Assembly: GCA_003566675.1 (NCBI GenBank) | Contig: PXCI01000214.1 | Span: forward strand, 1 to 38,450 | Reading direction: 5' to 3' | DNA from: Clostridia bacterium | Lineage (GTDB): Bacteria; Bacillota; Sulfobacillia; SLMV01 | DNA length: 38,450 nucleotides | Part shown: piece by piece, positions 33,855 through 37,283 of the stretch | Layout: each line of letters opens with the position of its first letter | Position numbering within the stretch: the stretch's first letter is position 1 | The notes under the pieces: generated by a model | Told to the model about the DNA's origin: nothing | Databases searched by the model: none | Seen by the model: only the letters and a program-made list of their open reading frames with translations | Position numbers and translations under genes: made by a program

Positions 33855-34355
33855 CTAACGATCGGCCGACTGTCTCTTCCACTCCTCCCGCAGGTACACC
33901 GGGTTCTCGCCGTGCGCACGATCAAGGATCAATCTGCCGTCGAGATGATCCATCTCATGCTGCAGGAGCTCCGACAGGTCTGCCTCGGCCTGCAAGGTCC
34001 TCTGCTCTCCCTCAAGATCCGTGAAGCCGATCGAAATCCGGCAGTGCCTGCGCACCCGGACAAGAAGAGAAGGCAGACTCAGACAATCATCCCAGAGCTC
34101 GAAGGTTTCGTCCGACCGCGATAAGATCGTCGGATTGATCAGGGTCATGGGCTCCCCGGCATCCACGAAAATCACCTGGAGATCACTGCCCACCTGGGGC
34201 GCCGCGATCCCACGACCAAAACCCAGCTTCTCTCGCACATCATACAGCGTGCACTGCAACCTGCTCACGAGAGCGTGCAACTCCTCATCTTCAATGTTGG
34301 CAACCGGCCGACAGCGCTGGCGTAAAATCGGATCTCCCAGTAAGGCTACCCTCAT
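33855..34355 (-). CDS. def: Peptide deformylase
   Basis: GRGIAAPQVG, DDCLSLP, LLQHEMDHLDG motifs; start MRVALLGDPILRQRC. Confidence 0.9.
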   Translation of the reverse strand: MRVALLGDPILRQRCRPVANIEDEELHALVSRLQCTLYDVREKLGFGRGIAAPQVGSDLQVIFVDAGEPMTLINPTILSRSDETFELWDDCLSLPSLLVRVRRHCRISIGFTDLEGEQRTLQAEADLSELLQHEMDHLDGRLILDRAHGENPVYLREEWKRQSADR

Positions 34356-34470
34356 GTGCACCACCCCTCCCAATACTTCCTCCATCCTAAAATGTATACC
34401 AAGCAGATCTGTTGAGGAAGGAAGCACGCCTGAAGTGGAGAAGATTCCCTCCAGGGAGAGGATGATCGAG

Positions 34471-35988
34471 ATGAAGACAGCGCCTCCTGAATACCAAGAT
34501 CTCACAGACCGAATGGCTGAAATCAGGAACCTGTCAAAACTGGCCGCCCTGGCTCACTGGGACATGCAGTGCAACATGCCCTCAGCGGGGGCTGAAGCGC
34601 GGAAGGAACAGCTGGTGACCCTCACCGGGCTCATCCACCGGCACATGACCGCCCCTCATATCGGAGATCTTCTGCACAGACTGAGGAGCTTCCAAGATTC
34701 CCTCCCCCATGCATCCGACGAGGCCGCCACATTGAGAACGGTCGCCCGGGAATACGAAAAGGCCACCCGGATACCCGAAAGCCTTGCCCGTGAGAGGGTC
34801 ACAGCCTCATCCGAGGGCCTGCAAGCCTGGCTCAGAGCGCGGGAGACGCGTGATTTCTCGCGCTTCCTTCCCGCACTGGAGCGAAATTTCGACATGAGCC
34901 TGCGCATTGCCGAGGCCCTTAACCCCAGTTCACCTCCCCTGGATGTTCTCATCGACCAGCGCGAACCTGGCTTCGATGTTGAAGGAGTCGAATCCGTCTT
35001 CTCCGACCTCAAGGAGGTCCTGATCCCGCTCATCCTTCGGGTCGCCGAAAAGCCAGACGCCGTCGACGATGCGGTCCTGCGCCAGCATTATGATCCTGAC
35101 ACCCAATGGGAGCTGACGCTGAAAGCCGTGCGGGACATCGGCTTCGACCTCCAACAGAGGGGAAGGCAGGACATCTCCGTCCACCCCTTCACCACCTCCT
35201 TTTCTATCGATGACGTCCGGATCACCACGCGCATCCGGGCCAACGAGTTTTCAGCTGCCTTCTTTGCCTCCCTACATGAAGCCGGCCACGGTACGTATGA
35301 GCAGGGATTCCCCAAGGAATGGGAGCGATCGATCCTTGCCACATCAGCCTCGGGAGGGATGCACGAGTCCCAGTCTCGACTCTGGGAGAACATCGTCGGG
35401 CGCTCCCCGGAGTTTTGGGAATTCTTCTATCCTGAAGTGCAGAGGCATTTCCCAGAGCAGACAGAAGGGACCTCCCACGGCGACTTTTACCGGGCCGTCA
35501 ACCGCATTCAACCCTCCTTCATCCGCGTCGAGGCGGACGAGGTCACGTACAATCTGCACATCATCATCCGCTTCGAGCTCGAAAAGGCAGCCTTTGAAGG
35601 TGAGCTATCCCTCGAAGACATGCCCGAGGCGTGGAACGAGAAATACGAAAAGTACCTGGGTATCACTCCGGAGGATCCTGTAGAGGGTGTCCTGCAGGAC
35701 ATACACTGGTCGGGTGGCTTCGGTTCATCCTTCATTAGCTACACCCTGGGGAACGTGATTTCCGCCCAGCTGTTCGGGGCTGCTCTCCGGGAACACCCTG
35801 ATATGAAGGAGAAATTCCGACAGGGTGACTTCTCCCGACTGCTCTCATGGATGCAGCAGAACGTTCATGCCCACGGGCAGAAATTCCCGCCGAGGGAGCT
35901 CGTCCGGCAGGCCACCGGGGAAGAGTTCAATACCGGACCCTTCCTCGACTACATCAAGAGCAAGACGGAAACCCTGTATGGTCCCTGA
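34471..35988 (+). CDS. Carboxypeptidase M32 (Taq carboxypeptidase family)
   Basis: SLHEAGHGTYEQG (HEXXH), HESQSRLWEN; start MKTAPPEYQDLTDR after GGGAGAGG. The longer ORF overlaps def antisense. Confidence 0.93.
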   Translation: MKTAPPEYQDLTDRMAEIRNLSKLAALAHWDMQCNMPSAGAEARKEQLVTLTGLIHRHMTAPHIGDLLHRLRSFQDSLPHASDEAATLRTVAREYEKATRIPESLARERVTASSEGLQAWLRARETRDFSRFLPALERNFDMSLRIAEALNPSSPPLDVLIDQREPGFDVEGVESVFSDLKEVLIPLILRVAEKPDAVDDAVLRQHYDPDTQWELTLKAVRDIGFDLQQRGRQDISVHPFTTSFSIDDVRITTRIRANEFSAAFFASLHEAGHGTYEQGFPKEWERSILATSASGGMHESQSRLWENIVGRSPEFWEFFYPEVQRHFPEQTEGTSHGDFYRAVNRIQPSFIRVEADEVTYNLHIIIRFELEKAAFEGELSLEDMPEAWNEKYEKYLGITPEDPVEGVLQDIHWSGGFGSSFISYTLGNVISAQLFGAALREHPDMKEKFRQGDFSRLLSWMQQNVHAHGQKFPPRELVRQATGEEFNTGPFLDYIKSKTETLYGP

Positions 35989-36024: not shown

Positions 36025-36300
36025 AACCCATCGTGCACTGTCCACCGGCAGTGCCCACCCGTCGATAACTGTCCCGCGCGACCTCATAAAAAGCATCCGG
36101 AGATTCTCCTACACGTTCCATCGTCGCCGCGTTGGCCGATCATCTCACCTTTTCGAAGTCGTTCTCAACGTGCAAGTAAGGTCCAACTTCCTTGTCCTTA
36201 CGGTGATAAACAGCGGATGGCCGACAATAACATGGGGGAACCATAGGAAAAGTGTTGCGCAAATGTGATAAGATTAAAAAGAAGGGATAGGTGATTTTCA

Positions 36301-36534
36301 ATGACAGACGTACTGATCGTATACACCCAGCCGGGCTGACCGCCCTGCGGCGCCGAGGTAGAGTTTCTATCTCAGAACAACGTGCAGTTTGAGGAACGTG
36401 ACATCACGCAAAACCCCGAATTCATCGCTGAATTGAGAGAGCTTGGGTCCATGAGCACCCCGACCACGGTTGTCGGCGACGAGGTTCTTGTCGGATTCGA
36501 TCGGGCAAAGATCACCGAACTGCTCGACCTGTGA
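36301..36534 (+). CDS. Selenocysteine-containing glutaredoxin (YruB/NrdH-like), UGA-recoded; missed by standard ORF calling
   Basis: ATG at 36301, in-frame TGA at 36337-36339, open to TGA at 36532-36534: MTDVLIVYTQPG-U-PPCGAEVEFLSQNNVQFEERDITQNPEFIAELRELGSMSTPTTVVGDEVLVGFDRAKITELLDL. The full thioredoxin-fold pattern (UxxC, cis-Pro in STPTTVVGDEVLVGFD) continues through the TGA. Confidence 0.9.
36355..36373 (+). promoter_or_regulatory. Candidate bacterial SECIS element
   Basis: GAGGUAGA-GUU-UCUAUCUC: 8 bp stem (one G-U), loop begins with G, 23 nt between the UGA and the apical loop. Confidence 0.8.
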
Positions 36535-36541
36535 TCAGAGG

Positions 36542-36568
36542 GGGAGAACGGGTCACCCCCGTTCTCCC
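36542..36568. terminator. Terminator-like hairpin between convergent genes
   Basis: GGGAGAACGGG-TCACC-CCCGTTCTCCC followed by TT. Confidence 0.65.
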
Positions 36569-36569
36569 T

Positions 36570-37283
36570 TCAGTCCATTGCATCGAGTTCCATAGGGGAA
36601 TCCCAGTCTTCAGCCTCCAGAATGTACCGCCCTCTCTGCAGCGGATACAGGGCTTGAGCCTTCAGCACCTCCGCATACATCTTCATGCGGGCGTAAAATC
36701 CCATCACCGGTCCGAACTTCTCCTCCTTGGTGTAGTGGGTAACAGCGGGCCACATAACCTGTGTCCCAGGTACTCCCAGGTCCCTGGCGAAGCGCGTCAT
36801 CAGAACTTCCACCCCAAATCGGGACCAGGCAAGATTCGGCAGGCGCCGTATGAGCTCGCGGCTCAAGGCTCTCTGGCCGTTCAGAATCGCAAACCACTTC
36901 TGTTGAAGGTCCACGGCGTACCTACCCTCAATGAACCTTGCCACGGTCATTCCCAGGCTCGGTGCATCGCAAAGGGGCTTGATGAGCGATTCAAGGTGCC
37001 CCGCCGTAACCCCCACAAGGTCCGCGTCGAGAAGAAGGACGATGTCCTGATCCTCAAGATAGTCGAAACCTGTCTGAAGAGCCGCTCCCTTACCAAAATT
37101 CCTTGGGTGTTGTATCGTGTGCACCGGGTACTCCCTTGCAACCTCCAGGGTCTGGTCGCGCGATCCATCATCCACCACTGCAATTTTGGAGAACAAACCC
37201 GAATCCACGGCACATCGGACAACGGGATCCATTCTGGGCTCTTCCTCAAACGCAGGAATTATTAGACCTACATTTTTGCTCAT
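36570..37283 (-). CDS. Glycosyltransferase family 2
   Basis: VGLIIPAFEEEPRMDPVVRCAV...KIAVVDDGSRDQTLEVARE...NFGKGAALQTGFDYLEDQDIVLLLDADL. Confidence 0.9.
   Translation of the reverse strand: MSKNVGLIIPAFEEEPRMDPVVRCAVDSGLFSKIAVVDDGSRDQTLEVAREYPVHTIQHPRNFGKGAALQTGFDYLEDQDIVLLLDADLVGVTAGHLESLIKPLCDAPSLGMTVARFIEGRYAVDLQQKWFAILNGQRALSRELIRRLPNLAWSRFGVEVLMTRFARDLGVPGTQVMWPAVTHYTKEEKFGPVMGFYARMKMYAEVLKAQALYPLQRGRYILEAEDWDSPMELDAMD

Follow-up and report, generated by a model that had tools for sequence, protein, structure and literature searches.

A small gene on the plus strand of the DNA analyzed here (36301–36534 of a 38,450-nucleotide stretch, hereafter the window) almost certainly encodes a selenocysteine (Sec) glutaredoxin. 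The predicted product is a dithiol-type glutaredoxin-like redoxin with Sec13 as its nucleophile (Sec13-Pro-Pro-Cys16), the UGA being decoded via SelB and a bacterial SECIS element (bSECIS). The gene is a genuine new case of a known kind of selenoprotein, of which gene finders split or miss the genes; it is invisible to standard ORF calling, and the (seleno)protein models of NCBIfam that were scanned all score it under their cut-offs. It is also one of many such genes across a bacterial class, and the family illustrates how a SECIS within an ORF may shape the encoded protein.

Reading frame, fold and neighboring genes

The ORF started at ATG 36301 and ended with a terminal TGA (36532–36534), giving a product of 77 amino acids plus the stop, which, with TGA translated as U, is MTDVLIVYTQPGUPPCGAEVEFLSQNNVQFEERDITQNPEFIAELRELGSMSTPTTVVGDEVLVGFDRAKITELLDL. 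An AGGTGA at 36289–36294 (plus strand), 5′ of the start codon, resembles a Shine-Dalgarno sequence and may act as one. The frame contained a single internal TGA (36337–36339, plus strand), codon 13, in the context TQPG-U-PPC, which the aligned homologs identify as the Sec codon of a UPPC motif. The TGC at 36346–36348 (plus strand) encodes the resolving Cys16, a column invariant in the alignments, and Thr53-Pro54 (36457–36462, plus strand) corresponds to the presumed cis-Pro loop, with Pro54 invariant and the cis geometry taken from the glutaredoxin fold. The earlier note on this DNA had described a complete glutaredoxin frame from ATG 36301 with TGA at the nucleophilic Cys codon, a further 64 residues before a second stop, and a cis-Pro loop; all three can be read in the translation, the loop with the reservation on geometry just given.

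The Pfam Glutaredoxin model (PF00462) matched across the TGA with 52.6 bits (cut-off 22.9), and the thioredoxin fold, the UxxC motif and the Pro54 loop agree with this assignment. The AlphaFold2 model of the read-through product, for which an alignment of 22 homologs was the input, had a glutaredoxin fold with the expected order of strands and helices and a mean pLDDT of 93.7. By sequence and by fold, the top PDB match was 7c10, “Dithiol cGrx1” (TM 0.88–0.89). Positions C13/U, C16, P54, G65 and F66 were invariant in the family alignment. Among the NCBIfam models, TIGR02196 (GlrX_YruB) led with 72.5 bits over residues 7–76, under its curated cut-off of 88.55, and NF041212 (Uxx-star) gave 54.9 bits against a curated cut-off of 66, placing the protein outside both families as curated. 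Because it scores under the cut-offs of these nearest models, the window protein is, to judge from its sequence, a divergent new member of the established Sec-glutaredoxin family, and not a new kind.

The upstream neighbor encodes an M32 carboxypeptidase (34021–35988, plus strand; PF02074, 559 bits), with a true start that probably lies downstream of the GTG at 34021. The downstream neighbor is a convergent gene for a family 2 glycosyltransferase (36570–37283, minus strand; PF00535, 71.6 bits). Between the glutaredoxin and glycosyltransferase genes lies a 13-bp hairpin (36540–36570, plus strand; MFE −23.7 kcal/mol, z −4.1), probably a two-way terminator common to both; having no T-run, it was missing from the terminator scan list. 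Rfam yielded no match within the window at the gathering threshold.

Selenocysteine and cysteine forms among homologs

Homologs were found in 32 of 61 related genomes and in 110 of 154 genomes of the class. At the codon-13 column, 65 distinct sequences (window included) carried TGA and 36 carried Cys (TGC/TGT), so that Cys-containing homologs do align across the TGA, a check proposed in the earlier note. The TGA forms kept Cys16 and the Pro54 loop, and their TGA aligned at the nucleophilic Cys codon; an in-frame TGA facing a functional Cys of homologs is the pattern by which bacterial selenoproteins are recognized. All internal stops among the matches listed in the 61-genome and class searches were TGA, with neither TAA nor TAG. 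The viral contigs contained no relative, and the plasmid collection provided no UGA precedent, since its top match (44%), in Acetoanaerobium noterae, has Cys.

A 100-row, 78-column tree, in which many forks are open and the window row is not firmly placed, implied 13 Sec/Cys changes versus about 30 with shuffled labels. The nearest homologs, from the same family, have Cys. From these comparisons, Sec glutaredoxin appears to be widespread in the class and to have often switched between Sec and Cys.

The bSECIS, GAGGUAGA-GUU-UCUAUCUC (36355–36373, plus strand), was delineated by folding and by covariation over the UGA forms. It has an 8 bp stem and a GUU loop (36363–36365), lies 23 nt past the UGA, and satisfies the published bSECIS model, in which the stem has 4–16 bp, the loop has 3–9 nt and a G near its start, and the spacing is 16–37 nt (PMC13188914). 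A 60-nt stretch folded alone had an unremarkable energy (z −0.79), and the hairpin was moderately unusual by itself: 8 pairs at register +23 were obtained in 135 of 20,000 synonymous recodings of the window sequence, and an equally long stem, when allowed anywhere, in 171 of 3,000. The window element is clear only from homolog comparison, which points to it in several ways.

Pairs at register +23 after the UGA averaged 6.4 of 8 in UGA forms versus 3.39 of 8 in Cys forms, while other registers never exceeded a mean of 4.4. Under a synonymous-recoding null the UGA set gave 4.55 ± 0.11 pairs and the Cys set 3.29 ± 0.14; the value observed for Cys forms was within its null range, and that of the UGA forms was above theirs, indicating that the signal does not come from the amino acids alone. 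Over 42 UGA forms picked for a common local protein motif, 93.2% of cells were paired (79.7% in shuffles) with a covariation score of 0.348 (0.126 in shuffles), and sliding the partner strand by 1–3 columns reduced pairing to 34–63%. Changes on both sides were found in four of the eight stem pairs, and the window itself has U-A at pair 5 and A-U at pair 8, both sides being changed relative to the commonest A-U and C-G, respectively. The hairpin was absent from Cys forms, and in roughly one quarter to one third of the UGA homologs, e.g., the KKFLQ group, it did not form at this register. The search for a bSECIS, also advised in the earlier note, thus ended in a GUU-loop hairpin after the UGA that covaries across UGA forms.

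Two further copies are of note. An uncultured Rubrobacteraceae MAG (Actinomycetota; L059:4001-4219) carried a Sec-glutaredoxin with a stem-loop letter-identical to that of the window, GAGGTAGAGTTTCTATCTCA, for which transfer between phyla or mis-binning is possible. Another glutaredoxin copy (L107; G123:C2:119300-119800) retained an AWLS SECIS-like region but was not homologous in frame over its N-terminal portion, where the UGA codon belongs; it is perhaps decaying or frameshifted.

The RNA element may also have left its mark on the protein. Ser24, the residue following (F/W)L of the helix, was found in 44 of 65 UGA forms versus 1 of 36 Cys forms, an association in which the count is inflated by related sequences. 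The SECIS inside the ORF appears, from this distribution, to impose Ser24 on the protein.

These observations bear on two other readings of the stop codon. If TGA were a sequencing or assembly error, with TGC or TGT misread within an ordinary Cys glutaredoxin, the Cys of the nearest same-family homologs would be expected and the metagenomic source of the assembly would offer an occasion for it. This is nevertheless very improbable, given that TGA occurs at the identical codon in 64 other distinct homologs, that the window has a hairpin with compensatory stem changes that is missing from its Cys sisters, that the protein carries the Ser24 typical of UGA forms, and that the assembly contains all sel genes (see below). 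Inactivation of a Cys glutaredoxin by a nonsense mutation, to which a premature stop at codon 13 might point, is even harder to credit: the sequence past the TGA is intact and keeps every invariant residue, the position of the stop and the identity of its codon are conserved over many families, and the downstream hairpin is conserved as well.

Among same-family genomes, two Clostridia bacterium MAGs (isolates B1Sed10 and T1Sed10; loci L054 and L055) encode the glutaredoxin as CPPC, within a conserved series of peptide deformylase, M32 carboxypeptidase, glutaredoxin and glycosyltransferase genes. Their Cys genes had no 8-bp hairpin, and neither tRNA-Sec nor SelB scored over the cut-off in the corresponding genomes (G006 and G004). 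Two more genomes of the family (G005 and G007) combine tRNA-Sec with a Cys glutaredoxin; any loss of Sec in the family would therefore not always have come after loss of the trait. The syntenic CPPC sisters, devoid of detectable Sec machinery, offer a clean comparison at an orthologous gene for judging the contribution of Sec to a redoxin. A Sec glutaredoxin that is common in the class, has switched repeatedly between Sec and Cys (in one case at a syntenic ortholog) and has a SECIS helix dictating Ser24 is a picture that we moderately favor. If true, the family is a natural experiment on an RNA element constraining a protein and on the consequences of Sec loss.

Decoding machinery and predicted redox chemistry

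The window corresponds to contig C61 in an assembly of 3.39 Mb and 365 contigs, a fragmented metagenome bin that is 90.6% complete with 6.3% contamination, and the sel genes stand on contigs other than that of the window. Its source is an uncultured, Clostridia-like bacterium, probably of the broad Sulfobacillus-like part of Bacillota; the nearest kin are MAGs labeled Clostridia that bear isolate names of a sediment type. The machinery of bacterial selenoprotein synthesis, i.e., tRNA-Sec, SelA, SelB and SelD, was found in the genome. The tRNA-Sec had anticodon UCA and scored 73 bits, and SelB reached 333 bits with neighboring pieces. SelA was split across the ends of two overlapping contigs (G000:C174 and C126; L015 and L016), and the few differences along their overlap of about 57 residues suggest strain variants in the assembly. 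SelD (375 bits; G000:C126:7537-8472, L019) had its own in-frame UGA (KAGUGCK), followed 33 nt further on by a hairpin, GGUGCAG-GUU-CUGCACC, whose GUU loop matches that of the glutaredoxin hairpin. The tRNA-Sec shared 86–87% identity with its counterparts in genomes of the family, and SelB was nearest that of the same-family genome G005 (43%, the best of those compared), which makes stray contamination an unlikely source of either. Immediately 5′ of selB, in the same orientation, was a trxB gene that scored over its cut-off (contig C155; L009 and L166).

In the set of 61 genomes, tRNA-Sec exceeded 65 bits in 39, and a TGA-form glutaredoxin occurred in 16 of these but in no genome among the other 22 (Fisher p = 2e-4, uncorrected for kinship). 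The earlier note had supposed that this organism decodes UGA as Sec and had suggested a genome search for selA, selB, selC (tRNA-Sec) and selD; all four were recovered, and together with the Cys alignment and the bSECIS they support that supposition. Reassignment of UGA to Trp, Gly or Cys in place of SelB recoding deserves next to no credence: nothing was found that speaks for it, TGA terminates 12 of the 19 long window ORFs examined, plus the glutaredoxin gene itself, and tRNA-Sec and SelB are present in the genome.

With Sec decoding as the preferred reading, SelB and Sec-tRNA-Sec would decode the UGA at 36337–36339 under the guidance of the bSECIS at 36355–36373, and the terminal UGA would end translation. 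The Sec13 selenolate may attack a disulfide, sulfenic acid or oxidized selenol substrate, and Cys16 would resolve the mixed selenenylsulfide. The oxidized protein would be re-reduced, most likely via the thioredoxin-reductase system, judging from the genes present: thioredoxin reductase is encoded in the genome, and a glutamate-cysteine ligase of PF04262 type was not found there. The sequences themselves show the Sec codon, the conserved bSECIS, the decoding genes, the fold with its UxxC motif and an exchange of Sec and Cys at one orthologous locus, from which we infer decoding in the cell, the electron donor and the substrates.

A different function, mainly as a ligand or delivery protein for selenium or metal and not as a dithiol reductant, seems unlikely, if less so than the readings weighed above. 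The weak similarity to the Uxx-star models (below the cut-off, as given above) speaks for it, as does the metal binding proposed for UXX-star proteins in a review (PMC13188914). Against it, the resolving Cys16 is retained and the fold is the glutaredoxin one seen in cGrx1, a dithiol redoxin, and among the neighbors examined no metal-resistance gene adjoins the Sec-glutaredoxin gene.

Comparison with known selenoproteins

The closest known relative is cGrx1 (PDB 7c10 and 7c12), which, going by its name and by literature cited in a review, is presumably the glutaredoxin 1 of Clostridium (Alkaliphilus) oremlandii, with Sec in its native form. The two proteins are alike in length and fold, with 47–48% identity, have Sec or Cys at residue 13 and Cys at residue 16 in equivalent positions, and share an EFLS motif past the active site. 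They differ in lineage and in that the window protein has UPPC and cGrx1 UPHC. A Sec-containing glutaredoxin of C. oremlandii was reportedly the subject of work by Kim et al. in 2011, and in that species it is said to be paired with a Sec-MsrA, MsrA being its known partner. A Sec-MsrA partner was considered for the window glutaredoxin as well and rejected: this genome has two MsrA genes, each with Cys, and the pairing is therefore not seen here. The novelty implied by the earlier note was too high, the Sec-glutaredoxin family being established and the nearest relative having a crystal structure.

The protein that TIGR02196 describes has Cys or is left unspecified, whereas the window protein has Sec; NF041212 Uxx-star proteins and the window protein have Sec at an equivalent place of a Grx-like domain. 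Sec glutaredoxins of Geobacter sulfurreducens, Moorella thermoacetica and Alkaliphilus metalliredigenes are included in a survey (PMC1794560), and in the accessible part of its table glutaredoxin was not among the Symbiobacterium selenoproteins. The three are, like the window protein, Sec forms in Sec-decoding bacteria, but of other lineages. Glutaredoxin is counted among the characterized selenoproteins (PMC13188914).
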